A stretch of DNA of 64,000 bases. Source: Lachnospiraceae bacterium (lineage in GTDB: Bacteria; Bacillota; Clostridia; Lachnospirales; Lachnospiraceae). The first letter of the stretch is position 1; the number at the start of each line of letters is the position of its first letter. A program made the position numbers and the translations under genes. Where the stretch lies: the NCBI GenBank assembly GCA_029338675.1, contig JAQYAV010000137.1:1-64000 (forward strand), given 5' to 3'. Positions 13,869-31,200 of the stretch are shown here, in pieces. The notes under the pieces were generated by a model. The model had not been told where the DNA came from. It was given only the letters and a program-made list of their open reading frames with translations, and searched no databases.

Positions 13869-14435
13869 ATGAGAAAATTGATTTTAGTCACATCGCCACC
13901 GGCATGTGGCAAGACATTTATTTCTAAGAAATTAGCTAAGGCGCTTAACAATTGTGTATATTTGGATAAGGATACACTTATTGTACTATCAAAACAGATT
14001 TTTAAGGTTGCAAATGAAGAGTATAACAGATCTTCTGACTTCTTCAAAAAAGAAATTAGAGATTATGAATATTATGCAGTTTTGGATTTAGCATTTGAAG
14101 CATTAGAATACAATGATACAGTATTGATTAATGCTCCTTTTACAAGTGAAATTCGTGATAATGAATATCTTAATAATTTAAGGGCAAAGCTTAAAGAAAG
14201 AGATGCTGAATTATTTGTTGTTTGGGTGTACACAGATGTTGAAGTATGTCATCAGAGAATGATTAAGCGTGCTTCGGATAGAGATTCGTGGAAGTTGGCA
14301 CATTGGAATGAATATATTGCAACTCAAAACTTTACAATCCCTAAGAATATTCCTGAATTATTTGTCTTTAATAATTCTTCAGAGGAGGATTATAAAAAAT
14401 CAATTAATGATGCTGTTGAGGCAATTCGTAGCTAG
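13869..14435 (+). CDS. P-loop ATP-binding protein (kinase/AAA-type)
   Basis: Walker A-like LVTSPPACGKTFISKKLAKAL; VCHQRMIKRASDRDSWKL region typical of AAA_33/zeta-like kinases. Confidence 0.65.
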   Translation: MRKLILVTSPPACGKTFISKKLAKALNNCVYLDKDTLIVLSKQIFKVANEEYNRSSDFFKKEIRDYEYYAVLDLAFEALEYNDTVLINAPFTSEIRDNEYLNNLRAKLKERDAELFVVWVYTDVEVCHQRMIKRASDRDSWKLAHWNEYIATQNFTIPKNIPELFVFNNSSEEDYKKSINDAVEAIRS

Positions 14436-14473
14436 TGTGAATTATTATTTAGATATTCTAGGAGAATAAAAGT

Positions 14474-15700
14474 ATGGCATTAATTAAGCCTTTTTGTGCA
14501 TATCGACCTAGGAAAGATATAGTAAGTGCTGTAGCTGCTTTACCATATGATGTTTATAACAGAGAAGAGGCTAAAGAGGTTGTAGCAAAAAATCCGTTAT
14601 CTTTTCTTAGAATAGATAGAGCTGAAACTCAATTTGATGATTCGATTAGTACATATGATCCTTGTGTGTACAATAAAGCTAAAGAATTATTAAATGATAT
14701 GATATCTAAAGGTCAATATGTTTTAGAAAATAAAAAAGCATTTTATGTTTATGAGCTTACTATGGATGGAAGAACTCAGACTGGTATTGTTGGCTGTGCA
14801 TCAATAGATGATTATATGAATAATGTAATCAAAAAGCATGAGAATACTCGAGAAGAAAAAGAGATTGATAGAATTAATCATGTTGATATTTGTGATGCAC
14901 AAACTGGTCCAATATTTCTTGCGTATAGGGCACAAAAACAAATTGATGATTTAATAGAAGTTGTTAAGAAACAAGATCCAGAATATTCATTTTATTCAGA
15001 GGATGGAATAAAACATCAGGTGTATGTTATTACAGATGAAGATAAAATAAATATATTATCTGATGCTTTTTCTAAAATGAATGAAATTTATATTGCTGAT
15101 GGACATCACAGAGCCGCTTCAGCTGTTAAGGTTGGAATAAAACGTCGTAATGAAAAAAATGAAATTGGTTTAGAGTCTGATTTCTTTTTGTCAGTATTGT
15201 TTCCTGATAATCAGTTGAAGATTTTACCATATAATAGAGTGGTAAGTGATTTAAATGGTCATACTGAAGAAGAATTTTTTGAACTTGTGTCTGAGAAGTT
15301 TAATATAATAAAATGTGATGATAAGGTTAGTCCTAGTGAAAAGTTTACATATGGAATGTTTGTTAATGAACAATGGTATATGTTGACTGCTAAAAATGAT
15401 ATACGCGTTGATGATCCTGTAGAAGGGTTAGATGTATCTATATTACAGAATAATTTACTTAATCCTATTTTAGGAATCAAAGATCCTAGAACGGATAAGA
15501 GAATTGATTTTGTTGGAGGAATAAGAGGGCTAGCAGAACTAGAAAAGAGAACTAGAGAGGATATGAAGATTGCGTTTTCAATGTATCCGACATCAATAAA
15601 AGAACTTTTTGATGTTGCTGATGCAGGAATGCTTATGCCTCCTAAGTCTACTTGGTTTGAACCTAAACTAAGAAGTGGTATATTTATCCATAAATTGTAG
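14474..15700 (+). CDS. DUF1015 family protein
   Basis: IKPFCAYRPRKDIVSAVAALPYDVYNREEAKE...FLRIDRAE...YIADGHHRAASAVKVG; COG4198-like. Confidence 0.8.
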   Translation: MALIKPFCAYRPRKDIVSAVAALPYDVYNREEAKEVVAKNPLSFLRIDRAETQFDDSISTYDPCVYNKAKELLNDMISKGQYVLENKKAFYVYELTMDGRTQTGIVGCASIDDYMNNVIKKHENTREEKEIDRINHVDICDAQTGPIFLAYRAQKQIDDLIEVVKKQDPEYSFYSEDGIKHQVYVITDEDKINILSDAFSKMNEIYIADGHHRAASAVKVGIKRRNEKNEIGLESDFFLSVLFPDNQLKILPYNRVVSDLNGHTEEEFFELVSEKFNIIKCDDKVSPSEKFTYGMFVNEQWYMLTAKNDIRVDDPVEGLDVSILQNNLLNPILGIKDPRTDKRIDFVGGIRGLAELEKRTREDMKIAFSMYPTSIKELFDVADAGMLMPPKSTWFEPKLRSGIFIHKL

Positions 15701-15719
15701 GAGAGGAGAATCTTTTGAA

Positions 15720-17918
15720 ATGACCAAAAGAAAAGAAGTTTTTGCAATAAATTGGATGGAAGTTGAAGCTTTAGTTAAGGGTAAACATAATAATCCACAT
15801 CATATACTCGGTATGCATGAGTGTATGGATGATTTGTTTGTGAATGTGTTTTTTCCACAAGCTAAGGTAGTAACAATAACAGATATATCGACAAAGAAAA
15901 AGTACACTCTGGTATCTGAAAGGGTATCAGGGTTCTTTTCAGTTGTTATAAAAGATATGAAGCGCTTTGAATATAAGGTGTGTGTTAAGCTTGAGAATGG
16001 ACAAGAGCTTTCATATTTAGATCCTTATGTTTATGAGCCTGTTATTGATCCAATAGATATATGTTTGTTTAATGAGGGCAAGCATTATGACATCTATGAA
16101 AAATTAGGCGCTCATCCTATGGTTGTAGATGGAGTAGAAGGTGTTTTATTTGCAGTTTGGGCACCAAATGCAGATAGAGTGTCTGTAGTAGGTAATTTTA
16201 ATAATTGGAATGGTTTAGTACATCCAATGAGAAAACTTGATTATTCTGGAATATATGAATTATTTATTCCTGGAAAATTTATTGGTGAAATATATAAATT
16301 TGAAATTAGCGCAAAAGATGGTAGCGTATTTATGAAGAGTGATCCATATGCATTCAGCAGTGAGGTTAGACCTGCAAATGCATCTAGAATCGTGGATATG
16401 TCTTACAAATGGAAAGATTCAAAATGGATGCTTAAACGTGATGAAATTTCAAATGTTGACAAACCTATGTCTATATATGAGGTTCATCTTGGTGCCTGGA
16501 GAAAGCCTGATGATGGTCGAGAATTCTATAATTATAGAGATATTGCTGTTTCCTTAGCGGATTATATGAATAAAATGAATTATAATTATGTAGAATTGCT
16601 GCCTATTATGGAACATCCTTATGATCCATCGTGGGGATATCAGGTTACTGGATATTATGCTCCTACATCTAGATATGGCTCTCCAACAGATTTTATGTAT
16701 TTTGTTGACTATATGCATAGCAAAGGTATAGGTGTTATTCTTGATTGGGTGCCAGCTCATTTTCCTAAAGATAATCATGGATTAGGCAGATTTGATGGTA
16801 CATGTTTATATGAACACGAGGATCCAAGACAAGGGGAACATCCTCATTGGGGAACATATATATATAATTATGGGCGAAATGAAGTAAGAAATTTCTTGGT
16901 CGCTAATGCCTTATATTGGGTAAGAAAATATCATGTAGATGGAATTAGAATGGATGCAGTTGCTTCTATGCTTTATTTAGATTATGGCAGAGGATATGGT
17001 GAGTGGATTCCAAATAAATTTGGAGGAAATGAGAACCTTGAAGCAATTCAGTTCATTAAAGAAGTGAATGAAAAAATAAAAGAAGAATCTAAGTCAGTTA
17101 TGATGATTGCAGAAGAATCTACTGCATGGCCAATGATGACACATTCTATTGCAGAAGGTGGTATGGGCTTCGATTTTAAATGGAATATGGGATGGATGAA
17201 TGATTTCCTTTCATATATGAAATTAGATCCATTATATAGAAAATATCATCATAATGAATTGACATTTAGCATGATGTATGCATTTAGTGAGAATTTTATG
17301 CTTGTGTTATCTCATGATGAAGTAGTTCATGGAAAAGGCTCTATGATTGAAAAAATGCCAGGTGGATATGAAGATAAATTCTCAAATCTTAGAACAGCGT
17401 ATGGATATATGATGACTCACCCAGGTAAAAAATTATTGTTTATGGGACAAGAGTTTGCGCAATTTTCTGAGTTTAATGAGGCAGGAGAACTTGACTGGTC
17501 TTTATTTGAATTTGATGCACATGTTTGTATTCATGAGTATGTAAAAGAACTTAATAAGCTATATCTTGAAGAGCCTGCACTATATGAATTAGATTCATCA
17601 CCAGAAGGATTTCAATGGATAAATTGTAATAATGCCAGTGCTAGTATGTTATCATTTATTCGTAAAGGAAAAGAAGAAAAAGATACATTACTTGTTGTTT
17701 GTAATTTCACACCAAATTGCTATAAGGCATATAAATTAGCAACTCCTTATGCTGGCAAATGGAAAGAGATTTTTTCTAGTGATTGTGCTAGATTTGGTGG
17801 GGATGGACAGAATAATAAAGTGGCTAAACAGACTAAAAAAGGTGAATGTGACGGATTTGAACAGTATATTTCAATAAATGTCCCATCGCTATCTGTATCT
17901 ATTTTCAAAAAACAATGA
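15720..17918 (+). CDS. glgB: 1,4-alpha-glucan branching enzyme
   Basis: NPHHILGMHE...FAVWAPNADRVSVVGNFNNWNG...YNYVELLPIMEHPYDPSWGYQVTGYYAPTSRYGSPTDFMYFVDYMHSKGIGVILDWVPAHFPKD...SHDEVVHGKGSMIEKMPG. Confidence 0.97.
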   Translation: MTKRKEVFAINWMEVEALVKGKHNNPHHILGMHECMDDLFVNVFFPQAKVVTITDISTKKKYTLVSERVSGFFSVVIKDMKRFEYKVCVKLENGQELSYLDPYVYEPVIDPIDICLFNEGKHYDIYEKLGAHPMVVDGVEGVLFAVWAPNADRVSVVGNFNNWNGLVHPMRKLDYSGIYELFIPGKFIGEIYKFEISAKDGSVFMKSDPYAFSSEVRPANASRIVDMSYKWKDSKWMLKRDEISNVDKPMSIYEVHLGAWRKPDDGREFYNYRDIAVSLADYMNKMNYNYVELLPIMEHPYDPSWGYQVTGYYAPTSRYGSPTDFMYFVDYMHSKGIGVILDWVPAHFPKDNHGLGRFDGTCLYEHEDPRQGEHPHWGTYIYNYGRNEVRNFLVANALYWVRKYHVDGIRMDAVASMLYLDYGRGYGEWIPNKFGGNENLEAIQFIKEVNEKIKEESKSVMMIAEESTAWPMMTHSIAEGGMGFDFKWNMGWMNDFLSYMKLDPLYRKYHHNELTFSMMYAFSENFMLVLSHDEVVHGKGSMIEKMPGGYEDKFSNLRTAYGYMMTHPGKKLLFMGQEFAQFSEFNEAGELDWSLFEFDAHVCIHEYVKELNKLYLEEPALYELDSSPEGFQWINCNNASASMLSFIRKGKEEKDTLLVVCNFTPNCYKAYKLATPYAGKWKEIFSSDCARFGGDGQNNKVAKQTKKGECDGFEQYISINVPSLSVSIFKKQ

Positions 17919-17935
17919 TTATAGAATAAAACAGT

Positions 17936-17990
17936 AACCCTAGAAAGCATTATGAAATTCATAGGAGTTTTGTGGTGATTTCTAGGGTTT
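17936..17990 (+). terminator. Rho-independent terminator after glgB (long loop)
   Basis: AACCCTAGAAA ... TTTCTAGGGTTTTATT. Confidence 0.6.
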
Positions 17991-18029
17991 TATTAGTGAA
18001 TTTATATGTATCATATAGGAGGCAAATGT

Positions 18030-18881
18030 ATGAATTTTGTAATGAATACATTAGAAAAAAATAGAATAGAGCTATATGCTGATCAACTATTTGATTGGCT
18101 TATGGGTAAAATGTTTGATATTATTGTTGCAATTATTTTTATTATAGTTGGCTTGAAGGTTAGTAAATTCATTGTAAAAGCAATTAAACGTTCTTTTGAT
18201 AAAGGGGCTCTTGAAAGTAGTGTTTCAGGTTTTTTGCTTTCCTTGATTAAGGGCGTATTATATATAGTTGTATTTACTATGGGCGCTGCAATAATGGGTT
18301 TTCAGGTTACATCGTTAGTAACTATTCTTGGAACAGCAAGCTTGGCAATTGGCTTAGCATTACAAGGAAGTCTAGCTAATTTTGCTGGTGGAGTGCTTAT
18401 TTTAATAATGAAACCATTTAAGGTTGGAGATTATATTATACAAAATGAAAATGGATGTGAAGGTACAGTTTCTTCTATAGATATTTTTTATACAAAGCTT
18501 AAGACTGTTGATAATAAAATTATTGTTATTCCAAATGGAAATATTACTTCTGGAACAATAACTAATGTAACAATTGAAAATAAGAGAAGACTGGACTTAT
18601 TAATTAATATATCATATTCTTCAGATTTGTTAAAAGTAAAGGATATGCTTAAAGCTATAGCGATTGATAGCGAGTATAATATTGAAAAAAACAGTACAGT
18701 AGTATATGTAGATTCTCTAGGAGATCATTCTGTTGTGATAGGTCTTAGATTGTTTGTTAAAACTCAATTGTATTGGAATGCAAAATGGGAACTTTTAGAG
18801 AAGATAAAAATTGCTTTTGATGAAAATGGAATTGAAATACCGTATAATCATTTAGAAGTAATTGTAAGTGATAGAAACTAA
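18030..18881 (+). CDS. Small-conductance mechanosensitive channel (MscS family)
   Basis: Hydrophobic N-terminus; VTSLVTILGTASLAIGLALQGSLANFAGGVLILIMKPFKVGDYI...GTVSSIDIFYTKLKTVDNKIIVIPNGNI. Confidence 0.93.
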   Translation: MNFVMNTLEKNRIELYADQLFDWLMGKMFDIIVAIIFIIVGLKVSKFIVKAIKRSFDKGALESSVSGFLLSLIKGVLYIVVFTMGAAIMGFQVTSLVTILGTASLAIGLALQGSLANFAGGVLILIMKPFKVGDYIIQNENGCEGTVSSIDIFYTKLKTVDNKIIVIPNGNITSGTITNVTIENKRRLDLLINISYSSDLLKVKDMLKAIAIDSEYNIEKNSTVVYVDSLGDHSVVIGLRLFVKTQLYWNAKWELLEKIKIAFDENGIEIPYNHLEVIVSDRN

Positions 18882-19050
18882 TTTCTTGTTTATTTTTGAT
18901 AATTTTTATTATTTATTTTGGTATTGTATATTAAATATTTTTTGTACTGTTATAGAAAAAACTAAGAATTTATGTTATCATAATCATTTGAGATGAATAG
19001 ATGTAATTATACAAATTGAATTATTATTAGAAATATGAGGAGTGTTGGCT

Positions 19051-19956
19051 ATGTATTATAGTAATATTTTGGACCTGATTGGTAATACACCTCTTTTGAG
19101 CTTGAAGGATAGTACGGGATTAAATATTTTTGCAAAAGCTGAATTTCTTAATCCAGGAGGAAGTATAAAGGATAGAATTGCAAAAAACATGATAGAAGTT
19201 GCTGAGGCAACAGGAAAACTAAAAAAAGGTATGACAATTATTGAACCTACAAGTGGCAATACAGGAATTGGCTTAGCTTTTTGCGGAGTTAGAAAGGGTT
19301 ATAACGTTATTATAGTTATGCCAGAGAATATGAGTGAAGAGCGTAAGAAGATAATAAAAGCTTTAGGCGCTGAATTAGTTCTTACCCCACCAGAATTAAG
19401 TATTGGTGGAGCAGTTGATAAGGCTCAGGAAATATACGAAACTGACAAAGAAAAATATTTTATACCACAACAGTTTACTAATCCAGCGAATCCAGATATT
19501 CATTACAGAACTACGGCAGTTGAATTAGTTGAGCAGTTGGGACAAAAGATTGATATATATGTTTCTGGTATTGGAAGTGGTGGTACTTTGGCAGGAGTTG
19601 CTAAGTATTTACTTGAAAAAAATCCTAATACTAAAGTAGTAGCAGTTGAACCAAAGAATGTTTCTGCATTACTTGGCCATGAACCAGGACTTCACCAGAT
19701 TCAGGGAATTGGAGATGGATTTATACCAGAAATATTAGATACAAGCATAATAACTGATATTGTGGAAGTAACAGATGATGATGCAATAAATACTGCTAGA
19801 CAATTAGCTAGAATTCAAGGCTTGTTGGTAGGTACTTCTTCAGGTGCAAATGTGTGGACAGCTATTCAAATGGCTAAAAAATATGGAGAAGATAAGGTTA
19901 TTGCTACAATACTTCCAGATAGAGTTGAAAGATATTTTAGTACATCATTAATTTAA
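19051..19956 (+). CDS. cysK: Cysteine synthase / O-acetylserine sulfhydrylase
   Basis: NILDLIGNTPLLSL...FLNPGGSIKDRIAKNMI...IEPTSGNTGIGLAF...GIGSGGTLAGVAKYL...GTSSGANVWTA...ILPDRVERYFST. Confidence 0.93.
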   Translation: MYYSNILDLIGNTPLLSLKDSTGLNIFAKAEFLNPGGSIKDRIAKNMIEVAEATGKLKKGMTIIEPTSGNTGIGLAFCGVRKGYNVIIVMPENMSEERKKIIKALGAELVLTPPELSIGGAVDKAQEIYETDKEKYFIPQQFTNPANPDIHYRTTAVELVEQLGQKIDIYVSGIGSGGTLAGVAKYLLEKNPNTKVVAVEPKNVSALLGHEPGLHQIQGIGDGFIPEILDTSIITDIVEVTDDDAINTARQLARIQGLLVGTSSGANVWTAIQMAKKYGEDKVIATILPDRVERYFSTSLI

Positions 19957-19974
19957 TTTTAGGAGGATACACAT

Positions 19975-21222
19975 ATGACTAGAATAGATATATTATCAGG
20001 TTTTTTAGGTGCTGGAAAGACAACATTGATTAAGAAGCTTATTGCCGAGGCATTCAAAGGTGAAAAGCTTGTTCTTATCGAAAATGAATTTGGCGAGATT
20101 GGAATTGATGGTGGATTTCTTAAAAGTGCTGGTGTTGAAATAACTGAAATGAATTCAGGTTGTATTTGCTGTTCGTTAGTTGGAGATTTTGGAACTGCGC
20201 TTAAGCAAGTAATTGATGATTATTCACCAGATAGAGTAATTATTGAACCATCAGGTGTAGGAAAATTATCAGATGTTATAAAGGCTGTTGAAGCAGTTAA
20301 TGAAGTGGCTGAAGTAGTTATAAATAGTGCAACAACTGTTGTTGATGTTTCAAAATGTAAGATGTATATGAAGAATTTTGGAGAATTCTTTAATAATCAG
20401 GTTGAAAGTGCAAGAACAATAGTTCTTAGTAGAACTCAGAATGTGAATGATAAAAAGATTGCTGATACTGTTTCGCTCCTTAGAGAACACAATGAACATG
20501 CAACTATTATTACAACTCCATGGGATGACATTGATGGTAATACAATTTTAGAGGCAATGGAGCATGCAAATACATTAGAAGATATGTTAAATGAAGTAAA
20601 AAAAGCTGCACATGAGCATCATCACCATGATGAAGAGGACTGCTGCTGTGGCCATGATCATGAGCATCATCACCATGATGAAGAAGATTGCTGCTGTGGC
20701 CATGATCATGATGAGCATGAGCATCATCACCATGATGAAGAAGATTGCTGCTGTGGCCATGATCATGATGAGCATGAGCATCATCACCATGATGAAGAGG
20801 ACTGTTGCTGTGGCCATGATCATGATGAGCATGAGCATCATCACCATGATGAAGAAGATTGCTGCTGTGGTCATGATCATGACGAACATCACCACCATCA
20901 CGATGAAGACTGTACTTGTGGATGTCATGGACATCATCATGCAGATGAAGTATTTACAAGCTGGGGCAAGGAAACAGCAAATAAATTCGACAAAGCTAAA
21001 ATGGAAGATATACTTAAAAAGCTTTCAGCAGAAGACGATGAATATGGTGTTATTTTAAGAGCAAAGGGTATATTACCTAGCACAGATAGTACGTGGATTT
21101 ATTTTGATTTAGTTCCAGGTGAATATGAAATAAGAGAAGGAAAGCCAGATTATACAGGAAAGTTATGTGTTATTGGCAGCAATCTCAAGGAAGATTTATT
21201 AGAAGAATTGTTTGGTTTATAA
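19975..21222 (+). CDS. COG0523/CobW-family GTPase metallochaperone with His/Asp/Cys-rich repeat insert
   Basis: GFLGAGKTTLIKKL, IENEFGEIGIDGGFL, NSGCICCSLVGDF (CxCC motif), then repeated HEHHHHDEEDCCCGHDHDE array and CobW C-terminal domain. Confidence 0.93.
   Translation: MTRIDILSGFLGAGKTTLIKKLIAEAFKGEKLVLIENEFGEIGIDGGFLKSAGVEITEMNSGCICCSLVGDFGTALKQVIDDYSPDRVIIEPSGVGKLSDVIKAVEAVNEVAEVVINSATTVVDVSKCKMYMKNFGEFFNNQVESARTIVLSRTQNVNDKKIADTVSLLREHNEHATIITTPWDDIDGNTILEAMEHANTLEDMLNEVKKAAHEHHHHDEEDCCCGHDHEHHHHDEEDCCCGHDHDEHEHHHHDEEDCCCGHDHDEHEHHHHDEEDCCCGHDHDEHEHHHHDEEDCCCGHDHDEHHHHHDEDCTCGCHGHHHADEVFTSWGKETANKFDKAKMEDILKKLSAEDDEYGVILRAKGILPSTDSTWIYFDLVPGEYEIREGKPDYTGKLCVIGSNLKEDLLEELFGL
20611..20940 (+). 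repeat. Tandem ~57-bp coding repeats for a His/Asp/Glu/Cys metal-binding array
   Basis: Five CCCGHDH modules in near-identical DNA (catcatcaccatgatgaagaagattgctgctgtggccatgatcatgat...). Confidence 0.9.
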
Positions 21223-21232
21223 TTTTTAATTA

Positions 21233-21290
21233 AAAGGTCAAGGTGAAAAAGGCTTTTTATAGCTTTGTTTGACATTGACCTTTTTAGTTT
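21233..21290 (+). terminator. Rho-independent terminator after the first COG0523 gene
   Basis: AAAAGGTCAA...TTGACCTTTTT stem followed by T's. Confidence 0.65.
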
Positions 21291-21325
21291 AGATAAGCAT
21301 TGTCGTATATTTGAGGAGGCATATT

Positions 21326-22285
21326 ATGAAGAATAACAATATAGAAGAAATTCCAGTTTATATGTTTTTGGGTTTTCTTGAAAGTGGAAAAACTACTTTT
21401 GCTAGTGAAACTTTAATTGAAAGAGGTTTTACAGAAGGTGAGCCTACTTTACTTTTGGTATGTGAAGAAGGCATAGAGGAGTATGACGAGGAATATCTTG
21501 AAAGCAATAATATTCATACAGAATATATAAGCGAAGAAAATCTTAATACAGAATATTTATTGGATCTTCAAGATAAATACAAGCCTACTCGTGTAATGAT
21601 TGAATATAATGGAATGTGGAAGGTGGACAAGTTATTTAATATTAGAGTACCAAAGGGATGGACAGTGGTTCAGGTTATTACATTTGTCAATTCAGAGACA
21701 TTTGACGTATATTCGGCTAATATGAAGTCAATGATGATGGAACACCTTTCTACAGCTGATATGATTGTATTTAATAGATGTGATGAAACAACAAAAAAGG
21801 CAGAATATAGAAGAAGTATAAAAGCAGTTAACAGAAGAGCTCAGATTATTTTCGAAAATAAAGAGGGAATAGCTTCCCTTGACGATGAGGAGCTTGAGTT
21901 ACCATTTGATATTAATAAGCCTGTCATTTTGTTAGAGGATGAAGATTTTGGAATATGGTATATTGATGCCTGTGATAATCCTGACAAGTATGTGGGCAAA
22001 AAAATAGTATTTAAGGCTATGGTTCATAAGCCAAAGGAATATGGCGTTAATGAATTTGTACCAGGAAGATTTGCTATGACTTGTTGTGCAGATGATGTTG
22101 CATTCATAGGATTTAAATGTTATTTCCATGCAGCAAAGCATTTGAAGGATAGACAGTGGGTTAGAGTAACTGGTGAAATTGATAAAGAATTTTATCCAGA
22201 ATTTGAGGGAGAAGGACCTGTTATTAAAGCCACAAAGGTAGAATTGGATAAACCTGCTGAAGAAGAGTTGGTTTACTTTAATTAA
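21326..22285 (+). CDS. CobW-like P-loop GTPase protein with C-terminal TIGR03943/YcgQ-like domain
   Basis: IPVYMFLGFLESGKTTFASETL P-loop; no CxCC motif; C-terminal KKIVFKAMVHKPKEYGVNEFVPGRFAMTCCADDVAFIGFKC...WVRVTGEI resembling TIGR03943/DUF1980. Confidence 0.75.
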   Translation: MKNNNIEEIPVYMFLGFLESGKTTFASETLIERGFTEGEPTLLLVCEEGIEEYDEEYLESNNIHTEYISEENLNTEYLLDLQDKYKPTRVMIEYNGMWKVDKLFNIRVPKGWTVVQVITFVNSETFDVYSANMKSMMMEHLSTADMIVFNRCDETTKKAEYRRSIKAVNRRAQIIFENKEGIASLDDEELELPFDINKPVILLEDEDFGIWYIDACDNPDKYVGKKIVFKAMVHKPKEYGVNEFVPGRFAMTCCADDVAFIGFKCYFHAAKHLKDRQWVRVTGEIDKEFYPEFEGEGPVIKATKVELDKPAEEELVYFN

Positions 22286-22286
22286 T

Positions 22287-22967
22287 ATGGAATATAATAA
22301 TATATACATTGGAGAGTTTATTGAAAGACCAAATAGATTTATTGCAAAAGTAAGACTTAATGACGAAATATGCGTTGTCCATGTTAAAAATACAGGAAGA
22401 TGCAAGGAGTTATTAGTTCCAGGAACTAAGGTTTATTTGGAAAAATCAGATAATCCAAATAGAAAAACAAAATATGATTTAGTTTCAGTATGTAAAGGTG
22501 ATAGGATAATTAATATTGACTCTCAGCTTCCTAACGATTTAGTAGAAGAATTTCTTCGAGAAGAAAAATTGTTTGCTGATATATCATTAATAAAACGTGA
22601 AAAGGTATATGGTGCTTCAAGATTTGATTTTTACATTGAAACTAAAAATCGTAAAATATTTATGGAAGTTAAGGGATGTACACTTGAAGAAAATGGTGTT
22701 GTAAGCTTTCCTGATGCTCCTACACAAAGAGGCTTAAAACATATTAATGAATTAATGAATGCGATTTGCAATGGCTATGAAGCATATGTTATGTTTGTTG
22801 TACAGATGAAAGATGTTTTATATTTTACTCCTGCAAAAAATATTCATAAAGAATTTGCTGATACACTAAAAATTGCAAGTGAAAGAGGAGTAAAGGTTTT
22901 AGCGTATGATTGTTATGTTGATAGTAAGAGCGTAAAAATATGCAATCAGGTTGAAGTAAGACTGTGA
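22287..22967 (+). CDS. sfsA: Sugar fermentation stimulation protein homolog (SfsA)
   Basis: FIERPNRFIAKVRLNDEICVVHVKNTGRCKELLVPGTKVYLEKS...RFDFYIET...MEVKGCTLEENGVVSFPDAPTQRGLKHINEL. Confidence 0.93.
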   Translation: MEYNNIYIGEFIERPNRFIAKVRLNDEICVVHVKNTGRCKELLVPGTKVYLEKSDNPNRKTKYDLVSVCKGDRIINIDSQLPNDLVEEFLREEKLFADISLIKREKVYGASRFDFYIETKNRKIFMEVKGCTLEENGVVSFPDAPTQRGLKHINELMNAICNGYEAYVMFVVQMKDVLYFTPAKNIHKEFADTLKIASERGVKVLAYDCYVDSKSVKICNQVEVRL

Positions 22968-22985
22968 TATGGAAAGGATGATATT

Positions 22986-23684
22986 GTGGCATTAATAAGT
23001 TGCAAGGATGTATCACTTGGATATGAAGGTAAAACTGTAGTTGAAAATTTGAATTTTGAAATAAATGATGGAGATTACCTCTACATATTAGGTGAAAATG
23101 GTTCAGGTAAAAGTACTCTTATGAAAACACTGTTAGGCTTAAGAAATCCTATGTCGGGAACAATTTTATATGGATTAAATCATAATGAAATAGGATATTT
23201 GCCACAACAGACAATTGTGCAGCGAGATTTTCCTGCGTCTGTTAAAGAAATAGTAATGTCTGGATTCCTTAATCATTGTGGACTTAGGCCCTTCTATAGC
23301 AAAGATGAAAAAAGAATTGCTAGAGAAAATATGGAAAAGCTTGGGATATCTGATCTAAAAAAAAGATGCTATAGAGAATTGTCAGGTGGTCAGCAACAAC
23401 GAGTTTTGTTAGCTAGAGCATTATGTGCAACAACAAAGCTTATAGTATTAGATGAACCAGTTGCAGGTTTGGATCCTAAGGTAACAGCAGAGATGTATGA
23501 TTTGATTAATAATCTAAATAAAGAGGGAATTACTGTTGTAATGGTTTCACATGATATTCAAGCCGCAATGACCTATGCAACAAAAATTCTTTATGTAAGT
23601 GATAAACCACAATTTTTTGATTCTAAGAAAAAATACATTAACAGCGAAATTGGGAAAGTATTTTTGAATGATACTTCAGAGTAG
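22986..23684 (+). CDS. znuC: Zinc-type metal ABC transporter ATP-binding protein
   Basis: Walker A GENGSGKSTLMKTLLG, LSGGQQQRVLLARAL signature, adjacent to ABC-3 permease; GTG start. Confidence 0.85.
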   Translation: MALISCKDVSLGYEGKTVVENLNFEINDGDYLYILGENGSGKSTLMKTLLGLRNPMSGTILYGLNHNEIGYLPQQTIVQRDFPASVKEIVMSGFLNHCGLRPFYSKDEKRIARENMEKLGISDLKKRCYRELSGGQQQRVLLARALCATTKLIVLDEPVAGLDPKVTAEMYDLINNLNKEGITVVMVSHDIQAAMTYATKILYVSDKPQFFDSKKKYINSEIGKVFLNDTSE

Positions 23685-23697
23685 GGAGGAACATAGT

Positions 23698-24543
23698 ATG
23701 CAAGAAAAGCTTTGGACTTATATGGGCTATGATTTTGTAATAAATGCATTAATTGTTGGTGTTTTAATTGCGTTTTGTGCCTCTTTATTGGGTGTTACAT
23801 TAGTATTAAAAAGATTTTCTTATATAGGAGATGGCCTTTCACATGTTGCCTTTGCAGGTATGGCACTTGCAATGATTGCTGAACTTGGCAACAATAATAT
23901 GTTGATAATTTTACCAATAACAATAATATCAGCTGTGTTAATGCTTAAGACAAGCCAAAATACAAAAATAAATGGTGACGCCGCGATTGCAATGATATCT
24001 GTTGGTTCCTTAGCATTTGGATATTTACTGCTTAATATTTTTTCGCCATCAGCAAATGTTTCAGGTGATGTGTGTTCAACATTGTTTGGTGCAACATCAA
24101 TATTAACATTAAGTGAATTTGATGTTTATTTATGTATTGGTATGTCAATATTTGTGTTATTATTTTATTTATTTTTCTATAATAAGATTTTTGCAGTAAC
24201 ATTTGATGAGGATTTTGCAACTGCTACAGGAATCAAATCAGGTGTATATAATACATTGATGGCTGTAATTACTGCTGTGATAGTTGTATTGGCAATGAAT
24301 TTGGTTGGATCCTTGCTAATTTCAGCGCTAGTAATTTTTCCGGCTTTATCGTCTATGAGAGTATTTAAGAATTTTAAGGCTGTAGTAGTTAGTTCTGGGA
24401 TTATTAGTGTAATATGTTCTTCTATTGGACTTGTTTTAGCTTTGCTTAATTCTACTCCAGTGGGTGCAACAATTGTGGCAGTAGATATAGTATGTTTTAT
24501 TATGTTTTCAATTGCAGGATTTGCACTTGGAAAAAATAGATAA
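23698..24543 (+). CDS. znuB: Metal ABC transporter permease (ABC-3/ZnuB family)
   Basis: SLLGVTLVLKRFSYIGDGLSHVAFAGMALAMI...LLISALVIFPALSSMRVFKNF. Confidence 0.88.
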   Translation: MQEKLWTYMGYDFVINALIVGVLIAFCASLLGVTLVLKRFSYIGDGLSHVAFAGMALAMIAELGNNNMLIILPITIISAVLMLKTSQNTKINGDAAIAMISVGSLAFGYLLLNIFSPSANVSGDVCSTLFGATSILTLSEFDVYLCIGMSIFVLLFYLFFYNKIFAVTFDEDFATATGIKSGVYNTLMAVITAVIVVLAMNLVGSLLISALVIFPALSSMRVFKNFKAVVVSSGIISVICSSIGLVLALLNSTPVGATIVAVDIVCFIMFSIAGFALGKNR

Positions 24544-24565
24544 CAAAAAAGATATAGTTTATTAT

Positions 24566-24620
24566 AAAGGTTGATAAAAATGCAAAACATTTGCATTTTA
24601 TATTGACCTTTATTTTTTTT
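24566..24620 (+). terminator. Terminator-like extended hairpin after znuB, overlapping the zur promoter
   Basis: TAAAGGTtgATAAAAATGCAAA-aca-TTTGCATTTTATatTGACCTTTA followed by T8. Confidence 0.7.
24581..24595. promoter_or_regulatory. Candidate Zur/Fur-family box 1
   Basis: TGCAA-AACAT-TTGCA, inverted repeat in terminator stem upstream of the zur -35. Confidence 0.45.
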
Positions 24621-24631
24621 GATGATATAAT
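24603..24631 (+). promoter_or_regulatory. Sigma-A-type promoter for the zur-like gene
   Basis: TTGACC (24603-24608), 17-bp spacer, TATAAT (24626-24631). Confidence 0.6.
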
Positions 24632-24637
24632 CCAAAA

Positions 24638-24652
24638 TGCAAATTAGTTGCA
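24638..24652. promoter_or_regulatory. Candidate Zur/Fur-family box 2
   Basis: TGCAA-ATTAG-TTGCA, same half-sites and spacing as box 1, located about +1 of the zur promoter. Confidence 0.5.
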
Positions 24653-24681
24653 AATTGTTTTGCATATGTGAAAGGATTGTT

Positions 24682-25101
24682 ATGAATAGAAGTAATAGTT
24701 ATTCAACTAGTAAAAGAACGAAGATATTAGATTATATAATTAAGAACTCCCATAAGGATGTTAGCGTAAAAGAGATAAGCAATTATTTGGATATAGAGCA
24801 AAATATGACAGTAAATGTTACGACAATCTACAGATATTTAGATAAGCTTGAGAAGGATGGTAAAGTAATTAAACATATTAGCGACAATGGACATACAACG
24901 TTGTTTCAATATGTTAAGCCTGATAATAACTGCCATGATCATTTACATATGAAATGTAGTAAATGCGGAAAAATTATGCATCTAGATTGTGAATTCATGG
25001 AAGAATTTAAGCATCATATATATGAAGAACACAAATTTACAATAGAATTTACTTCTTCTATGATATATGGAATATGTGATTCGTGTAACGTAAAGAATTA
25101 A
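24682..25101 (+). CDS. zur: Fur family transcriptional regulator (Zur-like)
   Basis: TIYRYLDKLEKDGKVIKH, HDHLHMKCSKCGKIMHLDCEF, YGICDSCN zinc ligands; surrounded by zinc transport genes. Confidence 0.82.
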   Translation: MNRSNSYSTSKRTKILDYIIKNSHKDVSVKEISNYLDIEQNMTVNVTTIYRYLDKLEKDGKVIKHISDNGHTTLFQYVKPDNNCHDHLHMKCSKCGKIMHLDCEFMEEFKHHIYEEHKFTIEFTSSMIYGICDSCNVKN

Positions 25102-25140
25102 TTAGTGATAACATAATTTTTTTTAAAAAGGAGAATGATA

Positions 25141-26136
25141 ATGAATAAAAGGTTGATTATTGCAATAGTTGTCATGGCGTTGATGGTGATTTTTTCAGGT
25201 TGTGGCGTAAATACTAGAGATGATGATAAGATTAATATCGTATGTACTCAATTTTCACAATATGACTGGGTAAAGAATATTGTTGGAGATGTCAAAGGAG
25301 TCGAGATTACTTTATTAGTAAAAAATGGAGTGGATATGCATAGTTATCAACCTAGTGCAGATGATATGATAACAATAAAACAGGCAGATGTATTTATTTA
25401 TGTAGGTGGAGAATCAGATAGTTGGATTAAGGATGCTCTTAAGCAAGCTAATTCAGATATGGTTAAAATTAATATGATGGATATTTTGTTGAATAGTGAT
25501 AAATCAAAGGAGTTAATAGCACAAGAAAATATAGATGATGAAAATCATGAAGAACATATTGTTCAGGCTATAGATAATCACGAAGAACATGATCATGAAT
25601 TTGACAATGATGAACATATATGGCTATCATTAGAAAATGCTAAAATTTTATGCAATGAAATAAAAAATAAGTTGTGTACAATGGATTCAAAAAATGAACA
25701 GGTATACAATGATAATTGTGAGCAGTATATTAATAAAATTGATGATTTAATAAATAAATATAATAAAAATATTAAATCAAAAAATATAAAAATAGTACTA
25801 GCAGATAGATATCCATTTGCTTATTTGTTTAGAGACAATAATATAGAGTGTTTTGCGGCATTTAATGGATGTGCTGCTGAAACTGAGGCAAGTTTTGAAA
25901 CAGTAATAAAATTAGCAGATAATTTAGATAAATATAATATGAAATATATATATATATCTGATGAGACAAAACGTGATTTCGCTAAAACAATAATATCTAA
26001 TTCAAAAGATGATAATAGAGAGATATTATTTATTGAATCGCTTCAGTCTGTTACACAAAAGAAGCTTGATGAGGGATTAACATATATTGGTGCAATGGAA
26101 GATAACCTAAATAAATTAATGAAATCAGCTGAATAA
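25141..26136 (+). CDS. znuA: Metal-binding substrate-binding lipoprotein (ZnuA family)
   Basis: Lipobox VIFSGCG, VCTQFSQYDWVKNIVGDVKGVEITLLVKNGVDMHSYQPSADDMITIKQADVFIYVGGESDSWI, His-rich loop EHDHEFDNDEHIWLS. Confidence 0.88.
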   Translation: MNKRLIIAIVVMALMVIFSGCGVNTRDDDKINIVCTQFSQYDWVKNIVGDVKGVEITLLVKNGVDMHSYQPSADDMITIKQADVFIYVGGESDSWIKDALKQANSDMVKINMMDILLNSDKSKELIAQENIDDENHEEHIVQAIDNHEEHDHEFDNDEHIWLSLENAKILCNEIKNKLCTMDSKNEQVYNDNCEQYINKIDDLINKYNKNIKSKNIKIVLADRYPFAYLFRDNNIECFAAFNGCAAETEASFETVIKLADNLDKYNMKYIYISDETKRDFAKTIISNSKDDNREILFIESLQSVTQKKLDEGLTYIGAMEDNLNKLMKSAE

Positions 26137-26230
26137 AGTGTTCACAGTTTTTTGACAAAAATAACAATTTTTTATCAAATTTTGTATGTAATATATGTAT
26201 CATAAGATAAAAGATGAAAGGATGATATGT

Positions 26231-28075
26231 ATGGATAATTTTGAAGACAAGACAAATAATAAGAATTTACAACAGAATAATAGTATGTATAGTGGAAATT
26301 ATGATGGGACAAGTACTATGGATAATACAATTTGGAACCAAAGTATAAATAGCCAGCAATTTGTGAAAACTACATCACAAGATCCATATTATAATGCTAA
26401 TAGTAATGCAAATACTATAAATAGTAATGCTTATGCGAATGTTACTAATAGTAATGCAAATGCTACTAATACTAATAGTAATGCTAATATTACTAATAAT
26501 ACTTCTTTGTCTGGAAATTATTCAAATGTAGGGACAACTAATAATATGGCTTATATTGATTCAAATAATAAGAATATATCTAATATGAATAATATAAGTG
26601 TAAACAATCAGAAGGAGCCAATAAATGAAAATATTGGAAACATTGGCTTGAATAATGATTCAATTCCATCACAAACAGGAAATGTTAGAATATCGAATAT
26701 GCCAAAATCAGAGCAAACTAATAATATTGGGGGAGTTAAGGCGTTTTATACACCAAATATGAAATTCGATAGTGATAATAAATCAGGTAAGAAAAATATA
26801 AAGTCTGGTAACAATAAAAAGAATAATAACAATAAAAAAGATGGTAATTTTATTTCCTATGCAAAAAGAGGAGTTGCCATTGCTGCCGCAGCTGCTATAT
26901 TTGGAGGCGTAGCTGGTGGTACTTTCAATATTGTTACAAATGATAAAATAAACAAAACATTAAATAGTAGTGAGGTTGTAGCTAAAGTTGATTCAGCAAT
27001 TACTACTGAAAATTCCTTTAAGCTAGGTGATAATTCTAATGAAGATAAAGACAATATTGCAATTAATACAACAAATTCTACAGTAGGAAACAAGGGAACT
27101 ATGGATGTTTCAGAGGTAGCAGAAAGTTTTATGCCATCTGTTGTTGCAATTACTACTAAAGGAATTGCGGAGGCAAATCAAGGCTTTTTTGGTACATACC
27201 AATATGAAACAGAAGGCTCTGGTTCAGGTATAATTATTGGAAAAAATGATAAAGAACTTTTGATACTAACAAATAACCATGTAGTAGACGGCGCTAATAC
27301 AGTATCTGTTGCTTTTGTTGATGAAAAGGTTAATCAGGCAAAGGTAAAGGGTACAAATTCAAATAGTGATTTAGCAGTAATAGTCGTTGATTTGGATGAG
27401 ATTGATTCTTCAACATTGGAGAAGATTAAGGTTGCTAAGATTGGTGATTCAGATAAAGTACAGGTTGGAGAACAAGTAGTTGCTATAGGTAATGCACTTG
27501 GTTATGGTCAATCAGTTACAACTGGAATTGTAAGTGCAAAAGATAGAACTAATGATACTAATGATACTCCTTTAATTCAAACTGATGCTGCAATTAATCC
27601 TGGAAATAGTGGAGGAGCATTAGTTAATATGAATGGTGAATTAATTGGTATAAACTCATCAAAATATGCTTCTTATGATGTTGAGGGTATGGGATATGCA
27701 ATATCAATAACTGCTGCCCAGGATATTATAAATGAGCTTTCTAACAGAAAAACAAGAGATAAAGTTGAGGAAGATGAAAGAGGATATTTAGGAATTTCTT
27801 GTGAAACAGTTACAGAGGCTATTTCGCAAACACAAGGAATTCCAATGGGTGTATTTGTTTCGGAAGTTCAGAAAGGTTCTGCAGCAGAAAAAGCTGGAAT
27901 AAAGAAATATAATATTATAACTAAATTTGATGGTCAAGTAGTTTCGTCTGCTGATCAGTTAGTTAAATTATTAGAGGGGTATAAAGCAGGTGAAACAGTA
28001 AAAGTTAACTTATCATATTTAGAAGATGATGAATATGTAGAAAAAGAAATCACAGTTACATTAGGAAAAAAATAA
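26231..28075 (+). CDS. HtrA/DegP-type trypsin-like serine protease with PDZ domain and Asn-rich N-terminal region
   Basis: ITNNHVVDGANTVSV, NSDLAVI, TDAAINPGNSGGALVN (catalytic Ser), PDZ at C-terminus; single TM helix after Asn/Lys-rich segment. Confidence 0.92.
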   Translation: MDNFEDKTNNKNLQQNNSMYSGNYDGTSTMDNTIWNQSINSQQFVKTTSQDPYYNANSNANTINSNAYANVTNSNANATNTNSNANITNNTSLSGNYSNVGTTNNMAYIDSNNKNISNMNNISVNNQKEPINENIGNIGLNNDSIPSQTGNVRISNMPKSEQTNNIGGVKAFYTPNMKFDSDNKSGKKNIKSGNNKKNNNNKKDGNFISYAKRGVAIAAAAAIFGGVAGGTFNIVTNDKINKTLNSSEVVAKVDSAITTENSFKLGDNSNEDKDNIAINTTNSTVGNKGTMDVSEVAESFMPSVVAITTKGIAEANQGFFGTYQYETEGSGSGIIIGKNDKELLILTNNHVVDGANTVSVAFVDEKVNQAKVKGTNSNSDLAVIVVDLDEIDSSTLEKIKVAKIGDSDKVQVGEQVVAIGNALGYGQSVTTGIVSAKDRTNDTNDTPLIQTDAAINPGNSGGALVNMNGELIGINSSKYASYDVEGMGYAISITAAQDIINELSNRKTRDKVEEDERGYLGISCETVTEAISQTQGIPMGVFVSEVQKGSAAEKAGIKKYNIITKFDGQVVSSADQLVKLLEGYKAGETVKVNLSYLEDDEYVEKEITVTLGKK

Positions 28076-28096
28076 AAAAATTTAACAAGAATAAAA

Positions 28097-28127
28097 AAGC
28101 TCGGGATGAAATTCCCGAGTTTTTTTG
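28097..28127 (+). terminator. Rho-independent terminator after htrA
   Basis: GCTCGGGA-tgaaat-TCCCGAGTTTTTTT. Confidence 0.88.
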
Positions 28128-28217
28128 TATAGAAAAGAATTATTATCTTTCCTATTATTGCTTTTTTGCATTTATTTAATAAATATAATAAATACAATTT
28201 AATTTTTAGCATATATA

Positions 28218-31200
28218 TTATTTATCTAGATTCTTTTTTGCAGTGGCAAGCATAAGCTTGATTCTATTAACCTGATTAACTTCAGAAGCACCTGGATCAT
28301 AGTCTATTGCAACTATGTTAGCATCAGGATAAGTTCTTTTTAATTCTTTAATTACACCTTTACCTACTATGTGATTTGGTAAACATGCAAATGGTTGACA
28401 ACAAACTATGTTGCTTGCACCTGATTTTATTAACTCAATCATTTCACCAGTTAGGAACCAGCCTTCACCAGTTTGATTTCCAATAGAAACAATTGGTTTA
28501 GCATATTCGGCAAGGTGAGAAATATGTATAGGACTGCTGAAACGGTTGCTCTTATCAAGTGCTTTTTTCATTGGTTTACGAAGTTGTTCTAAAAGACCAA
28601 TTGCCATATTTGATATAGTAGCTGAACGTTTAGATTTGCCTAAAAATTCATAATTGTAGTTATTTCCATAGAAGCAGTACATGAAGAAGTCCAATAAATC
28701 GGGCATAACTGCTTCAGCACCTTCGGATTCTAGTAACTCAACAATATTATTATTGGCAGATGGTAGGAATTTAACTAAAATTTCACCTACAATACCAACA
28801 CGAGGCTTTTTGATTGTTTCATCAAGTGGTAAATTATCAAAGTCTTCAACAATACCTTTAACAACCTTTGAGAATCCACGTCCACCATGTTCCATACATT
28901 TAATACATATTTTTTTCCATTTTCTATGAAGTTTATTTGCAGAACCTTTAACTTTTTCATAAGGTCTTGTTCTGTATAGAACTCGCATAAATAAGTCACC
29001 CAAAATTAAAGCTTGCATTGCACATTTTATTGTTTTTAAATTAATCTTGAATCCTGGATTATTTTCAAAACCTTGTACACTAAGTGCAATAACTGGAATT
29101 TGTCCATATCCTGCTTTAGCAAGAGCACGACGAATGAAACCAACATAATTAGTTGCTCTACATCCACCACCTGTTTGAGTCATAACAACAGCTAATTTAT
29201 TAACATCATATTTTCCAGAGTTGATTGCATGCATCATCTGTCCTACAACAATAAGAGAAGGGTAGCATGCATCGTTATTAACATATTTTAATCCAGTGTC
29301 AATTACTTCTTTGTTAGCATCAGGAAGCATCACAATATTTAAGCCTAAATGCTTAAGAGCAGCTTCTAAAATGTCAAAGTGGATAGGAGACATCTGAGGT
29401 ACTAAAACTGTGTAATCACGCATATCCTCAGTGAAGGCAACACGTTGAATTGAACTTGGAACAGGGCATGGAGTAAAGTTTTGCTTTCTACGTACATTTA
29501 CAGCACTAATAAGAGATCTGATTCTAATTCGTGCGGCTCCAAGATTACTAACCTCGTCGATTTTAAGTACAGTATATATCTTGCCTGAATTTGTGAGAAT
29601 GTCATTTACACAATCTGTAGTTACAGCATCAAGACCACAGCCAAATGAGTTGAGTTGAATAAGTTCGAGATTTTTGCTAGCCTTAACGTAGTTTGCTGCT
29701 TTGTATAATCTTGAGTGATACATCCATTGGTCTGATACAATAAGTGGACGTTCAACAGAGCTTAAATGTGCAACAGAATCCTCTGTTAATACAGCTATAT
29801 CATAAGAATTAATAAGCTCTGGAAGCCCATGATTTATTTCTGGATCTAAGTGGTAAGGTCGTCCTGCTAAAACAATACCAAGTTTATTATTTTCTTCGAG
29901 ATATTTAATTGTTTCAGTACCTTTTTTCTTGACATCTTCAATTACAGCATCTGCTTCAGCGTAAGCCGCTTCAACAGCTTCAGATATTTCAGTTTCTGTT
30001 ACATTAGTATATTTTGAAAACTCACGCAATAATCTTTGCTTTAATGCTTCTTTATTGTCTAAAGCAAGGAATGGTCTTATAAATGTAATATCAGGTGAGT
30101 TTATTTCTTCCATGTTATTTTTGATGTTCTCTGCGTAAGAAGTAACAATTGGACAGTTGTAGTGATTGTTCGCATCAGGGGTTTCGTTTCTTTCGTATGG
30201 AATACAAGGATAGAAGATAGTCTTTATTCCTTGTTTAAGCAACCACATAACATGACCATGAGAAATCTTCGCAGGGTAACATTCAGATTCACTTGGAATT
30301 GATTCAATACCGAGTGAATAAATATCGCGAGAAGACTTTGGCGATAAAACAACCTTATATTTTAATTTTGTAAGGAATGTATGCCAAAATGGATAGTTTT
30401 CATACATATTAAGTACACGAGGTACACCTATCTCACCACGAATAGCTTCTTCGTCGCTAAGTGATTCATAGTTAAATAGTCTGTCAAATTTGTATTGGAA
30501 TAGGTTTGGTACATTATTCTTGTTTTTCTTTAGTCCAAGACCTTGTTCGCATCTGTTTCCTGATATAAATTGTCTTCCACCAGAGAATTTGTTTATAGTT
30601 AAAAGACAACTATTTGTACAGCCCTTGCATCTTGCCATACGTGTTTCGTATGTAAGAGATTCGATTTCATCTTTGCTTAACATTGTACTAGGTTTATCTT
30701 CTTCGTAACGATCTCGTGCAATTAATGCGGCACCGAAGGCACCCATAATTCCAGCAATATCAGGTCTTATTGCAGTTCTTCCAGATATAAGCTCAAAGCT
30801 TCTTAATACAGCATCATTATAGAAGGTACCACCTTGAACCACAATGTTTTTGCCAAGGGACTTAGGATCTGTAAGCTTGATTACTTTGAGTAATGCGTTC
30901 TTAATTACAGAATATGCAAGACCAGCAGATATATCAGCTACAGAAGCACCTTCCTTTTGAGCCTGCTTAACCTTTGAATTCATAAATACTGTACATCTTG
31001 AACCTAAATCAATAGGACTTTCTGCAAATAAAGCAATTTTGGCAAAATCTTTAATTTCGTAATTAAGTGATTTCGCAAATGTTTCAATAAATGAACCACA
31101 ACCAGATGAACAGGCTTCATTTAACATAACATTATCTACAACATTATTCTTGATTTTAATACATTTCATATCCTGACCACCAATGTCAAGAATGCAGTCT

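Follow-up and report, generated by a model that had tools for sequence, protein, structure and literature searches.

The closest described relatives of the gene treated here are the COG0523 GTPases, among them YjiA, YciC/ZagA, ZigA and ZNG1, with which it has in common a G domain, a CxCC motif, a CobW_C domain, a frequent His stretch and a zinc context. His stretches are found in approximately 40% of 887 COG0523 proteins and reach up to 29 His, and a COG0523 subset is linked to Zur (Haas et al., 2009; PMC2770081); many clusters of the group were called uncharacterised by a 2022 review (PMC9164220). HypB is another G3E GTPase carrying a poly-His segment as a metal store or chaperone, with 18 Ni per dimer in B. 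japonicum (cited in PMC2770081), but its His stretch is N-terminal, it lacks the CxCC/CobW_C architecture and its clients are Ni enzymes. A third point of comparison is the TIGR03943/DUF1980 protein YcgQ together with the ArsP_1 permease YcgR: the DUF1980_C domain and its Cys-Cys motif recur as the C-terminal half of the partner protein described below, whereas the membrane parts are missing in the array clade. Compared with known COG0523 proteins, the array GTPase has a long repeated inter-domain array, with Cys repeats in many species and 43 His in the sequence described here (up to 70 in relatives) against the maximum given by Haas et al., and it is accompanied by a conserved second GTPase and has SRTQ in place of NKxD. 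A literature search returned no description of the array, of its pairing with the second GTPase or of the DUF1980 fusion, the main 2021 COG0523 review lying outside its scope.

The window, the whole stretch of 64,000 nucleotides analysed (contig JAQYAV010000137.1 of the Lachnospiraceae bacterium assembly GCA_029338675.1), encodes a protein with Pfam cobW at aa 6-179 (PF02492, E 2.6e-36) and CobW_C at aa 328-413 (PF07683). Its P-loop (G9..K15 T16 T17) and the CxCC residues C63, C65 and C66 are invariant (A1 alignment). The AF2 model is confident for the G domain and the C-terminal domain, drops in confidence near the CxCC switch region (approximately aa 39-69), and predicts the array to be disordered (pLDDT approximately 40 at aa 230-317), and its best fold matches are E. 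coli YjiA structures (Foldseek 4ixm, E 5.5e-14). The protein is thus a COG0523 G3E member by its P-loop cobW domain, CxCC, CobW_C and YjiA-like fold, in agreement with the first-pass annotation, and it scores under the NCBIfam cut-offs for the ZigA, CobW and YjiA equivalogs (72 bits against 600 for ZigA, NF038288). At aa 152-155, where the guanine-specificity motif NKxD is expected, it has SRTQ, aligned with TKTD of YjiA and near-invariant at S152, R153 and T154, so that a specificity for GTP is putative.

The same annotation had described five modules repeating at approximately 57 bp. Five in-frame HHHHDEEDCCCGHDH modules do occupy 20611-20886 of the 415-aa ORF, and a sixth, degenerate unit, HHHHHDEDCTCGCHGHHH, runs to 20940 (Table 1). 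The CCC triads are spaced by 16, 19, 19 and 19 aa (48, 57, 57 and 57 bp), so the period fits three intervals, as well as the 57-bp array called independently by TRF (score 429), but not the first interval. The full units have 91-100% DNA identity, with nearly all differences synonymous; the unit was matched five times in the window genome, every time inside the array, and the DNA periodicity exceeds that of 200 of 200 codon shuffles. With 43 His and 18 Cys in 110 aa, the description as a thiol/imidazole array is apt, and so is the comparison with COG0523 metal arrays, except that this one sits between domains and not at the tail. The opposite strand (20587-20940, -) holds a Met/Ile/Ala-rich open frame of 117 aa, most likely a by-product of codon repeats.

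Table 1. Features of the array locus, in coordinates of the window.
Feature	Position	Strand	Details
cysK (cysteine synthase A), directly upstream of array GTPase	19051..19956	+	TIGR01139 above cut-off
COG0523 GTPase with inter-domain His/Cys array	19975..21222	+	415 aa; Pfam, AF2 model
GCICC (CxCC) metal motif, aa 62-66	20158..20172	+	sequence
His/Cys array, aa 213-322	20611..20940	+	110 aa; 43 His, 18 Cys; 99% H/C/D/E/G; predicted disordered
Repeat unit 1 (48 bp)	20611..20658	+	sequence
Repeat units 2-5, 57 bp each; starts 20659, 20716, 20773, 20830	20659..20886	+	
Degenerate terminal unit (CTCGC), ends in conserved HHH ahead of ADEVF	20887..20940	+	
CobW_C domain of array GTPase	20956..21213	+	Pfam
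Inverted repeat AAAAGGTCAA/TTGACCTTTT between both GTPase genes	21232..21284	+	read from sequence; long loop; scan did not call
Partner: CxCC-less G3E GTPase fused to DUF1980_C OB-fold	21326..22285	+	319 aa; Pfam cobW + DUF1980_C
znuC-type ABC ATPase	22986..23684	+	Pfam ABC_tran; closest NCBIfam AztA, below cut-off
znuB-type permease	23668..24543	+	Pfam ABC-3
Perfect palindrome AAATGCAAA-ACA-TTTGCATTT, candidate Zur operator 1	24578..24598	.	sole zero-mismatch match in genome
Candidate Zur operator 2, 57 bp downstream of operator 1	24635..24655	.	
Fur/Zur-family regulator	24682..25101	+	Pfam FUR; likely start 24682, ORF opens 24637
znuA with His-rich loop	25135..26136	+	Pfam ZnuA

The most conserved neighbour of the array GTPase is the gene of its partner, which is the next gene downstream in 79 of 80 loci, at a median gap of approximately 14 bp. 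In L096 the partner match is upstream, and in L018, L023 and L113 it is not within reach. In the window, 103 bp separate the array GTPase stop from the partner start, and the inverted repeat within them is a possible terminator. When the class was searched with the partner profile, all fused partners whose flank was informative had an array GTPase next to them (L200, L202-L205, L230-L240, L242 and L243); the flank of L241 is too short to judge, and L227 is a second copy with no array GTPase nearby. The invariant residues of the partner include the P-loop, N150 and C253-C254-x-x-D257, and its AF2 model (pLDDT 91.8) matches HypB/YjiA and then OB folds. In L258 (G207:C16:161000-171000), a second fused CxCC-less GTPase-DUF1980_C gene without an array GTPase adjoins the gene of a 304-aa protein, and one ORF of this locus has GGCGHC-type His/Cys repeats.

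Past the pair, the genes of the window cluster are sfsA, znuC, znuB, one of the Fur/Zur family and znuA. Of 16 loci from the genus of the window, 12 have zur and/or znu genes next to the pair, arranged in differing ways: cysK, the array GTPase, the partner and zur are contiguous in five loci, and znu genes accompany the pair in seven. Outside the genus, znu genes were found near the pair in two (L049 and L108) of approximately 75 other loci. The gene cysK is upstream of the array GTPase in 10 of the 16 genus loci and in L018; as it is confined to part of the genus plus that locus, it was rejected as an obligate partner. A link between cysteine supply through cysK and the Cys-rich array is possible. 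The gene also precedes Cys-poor arrays.

A double palindrome of the type TGCAAAT-n-ATTTGCA, its copies approximately 57 bp apart, stands before the znu genes in five genus loci and before zur in the window, and is rare elsewhere (11 matches with at most one mismatch in 1.16 Mb), making the TGCAAATnATTTGCA-type pair at 24578-24655 a candidate Zur operator. The Zur box of B. subtilis is unlike this palindrome. No Zur-like operator was found before cysK, the array GTPase or the partner, the TGCAAA palindromes preceding zur/znu only, and the upstream regions of the COG0523 gene in 109 loci had no palindrome in common. Zur control of the array gene through the TGCAAA palindrome is therefore not supported, and an operator of another sequence is possible. 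An Rfam scan of 14000-28500 gave no match. Further downstream, at 26392-26498, the N-terminal part of an HtrA-like protease has imperfect repeats rich in Asn and Thr.

Read from these genes and domains, the array GTPase is probably a cytosolic zinc-handling G3E (COG0523) NTPase whose array serves as a zinc-collecting or buffering loop feeding a two-GTPase zinc-transfer system. The disordered inter-domain loop would act as a multi-site metal antenna or buffer, in which weak-to-moderate His/Asp/Glu sites and, in the window species, tighter Cys-triplet sites would bind Zn(II) as it arrives, concentrate it locally and feed it to the CxCC site in the G domain. A switch driven by the nucleotide would then deliver the zinc to clients jointly with the partner, which would contribute its CxCC-less G3E GTPase and an OB-fold DUF1980_C with the invariant Cys-Cys-x-x-Asp. 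We infer the identity of the metal, its binding and stoichiometry, the hand-off and the contact of both GTPases from these features, and metal storage by the array is plausible.

The array could instead serve mainly to store or detoxify surplus Zn (or Cu, Cd), as a metallothionein/Hpn-like appendage that does not need the NTPase cycle. Chains with up to 70 His and up to 18 Cys would suit such a sink, large changes in array length are tolerated, and, with no Zur-type operator found before the array gene, induction by starvation is not required. However, the array is always carried on a conserved CxCC NTPase paired with a second GTPase, and the adjoining genes encode uptake functions and Zur rather than efflux, which makes this explanation unlikely. 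Delivery of nickel or cobalt in the manner of HypB or CobW is very improbable: His stretches are typical of the Ni-binding HypB and both the partner and the array protein have HypB-like folds, but the neighbours are zinc genes, the NCBIfam scores stay far below cut-off (85 against 332 bits for CobW, 21 against 121 for HypB), and of 60 family genomes only 9 match the NiFe-hydrogenase large subunit and 11 match urease alpha, against the GTPase in 227 of 250. The window genome (G000) has no match to the NiFe hydrogenase large subunit (PF00374) or urease alpha (PF00449).

Orthologues are thus present in 227 of 250 same-family genomes; for the genus the count is 36 of 37. An array stands at the same inter-domain place in nearly all members read. 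The 138 arrays read are 96% H/D/E/C/G, range from 38 to 141 aa in length and contain 17-70 His and 0-18 Cys, the 18 Cys of the window array being the joint maximum. The repeat unit is private to the species, being built on CCC, CGCG, CC, CTCGC or a single Cys, or Cys-free (HHHHDHDEDEHEH). Of 107 arrays, 70 had a DNA periodicity above that of 200 of 200 codon shuffles, the best periods being 30-186 bp, and 45% of array 8-mers recur within their own array, compared with 14% common to the nearest species. On a tree of the core domains, the 138 arrays require at least 68 changes among seven chemistry classes (81-97 under label shuffles), the presence of Cys repeats changes at least 17 times and CCC at least 14 times, counts that are approximate because many branches of the tree are weak. 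As CCC changes state so often, and as close relatives have repeats without Cys, the Cys triads represent one chemistry among several that can replace each other; the array is the family trait and the CCC unit is not, so that the weight first placed on the triads was too narrow.

The copy-number variation anticipated for the array is seen in the sister species L164 and L177, whose 195-aa cores are identical (95% DNA identity) and whose arrays have 88 and 140 aa; similarly, L023 and L070 differ in their units though their cores are 97% identical. Recent expansion, suggested earlier from the near-identity of the repeats, fits the window, but across arrays the repeat copies differ with a pS of 0.41 and a pN of 0.025. 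Synonymous divergence with the protein kept indicates that selection, beside recency, keeps the units alike. The resulting pN/pS is 0.06, to be read knowing that a His, Asp, Glu or Cys codon can change synonymously by a transition only; it lies far under the approximately 0.3-0.45 that we estimate for neutrality when allowing for a high transition bias, and thus unit identity drifts and ligand composition is selected. A coding minisatellite that evolves almost neutrally, is tolerated within a disordered linker and has little function itself would account for the many changes of chemistry class and the wide range of lengths, but it is scarcely credible given the constant composition, this low ratio and the presence of an array in every member read with a fused partner adjoining. 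In the zinc-collecting loop preferred here, array length and unit chemistry would drift by slippage or recombination, with selection holding the ligand composition and not a fixed fold.

Loci L035-L114 were found partly by His-rich patterns, which biases sampling towards arrays; the class-wide search with the partner profile sampled independently of them. An assembly artefact was ruled out, since a complete genome (L085) has an array as well, and so does a contig whose name ('quiver') indicates PacBio polishing (L043). Array copy number is uncertain in short-read assemblies, and in G557 and G580 the array meets contig ends.

Five relatives without a long array (L252-L256) have the same parts separate or fused otherwise. 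The order in L252 is Fur, COG0523, a cobW-ArsP permease fusion and DUF1980, with similar sets in L253 and L254, and in L255 without DUF1980; L256 has ZnuA, ArsP permease, DUF1980, COG0523 and cobW. In three of them a CxCC-less cobW GTPase is fused directly to the ArsP_1 permease with DUF1980 adjoining (L252:3719-5326, L253:4573-6147 and L254:3943-5730), which would represent a GTPase-coupled metal permease architecture. In 96 array loci searched, no permease and no DUF1980_N match was found, and DUF1980_N occurs in only 3 of 60 family genomes. The simplest reading would be that the membrane parts were lost, the GTPase was fused to DUF1980 and the array was gained, in a direction that is inferred and unrooted.

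We tentatively propose, as a possible account, that two GTPases form an undescribed, soluble and very common system for zinc allocation in Clostridia, and that this system may have arisen from a permease-linked module (COG0523, CxCC-less GTPase, ArsP permease and DUF1980) that lost its membrane parts, joined the GTPase to the OB domain of DUF1980 and acquired a homogenising His/Cys array, the direction again being unrooted. The array would be a protein minisatellite in which metal affinity and capacity are tuned through copy number and ligand swaps, under selection on composition and not on sequence. The system is a variant of COG0523 biology, common and testable, and not a new category. About nine of ten sampled genomes of one gut-type, Lachnospiraceae-like family have the gene, nearly always accompanied by the same partner gene, and its relatives form a natural series of metal-binding loops, from Cys-rich to Cys-free and from 17 to 70 His, on conserved and sometimes identical cores. 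This series lets the effects of ligand chemistry and number on intracellular zinc buffering be tested directly, and bears on the role of the His stretches of COG0523 proteins.
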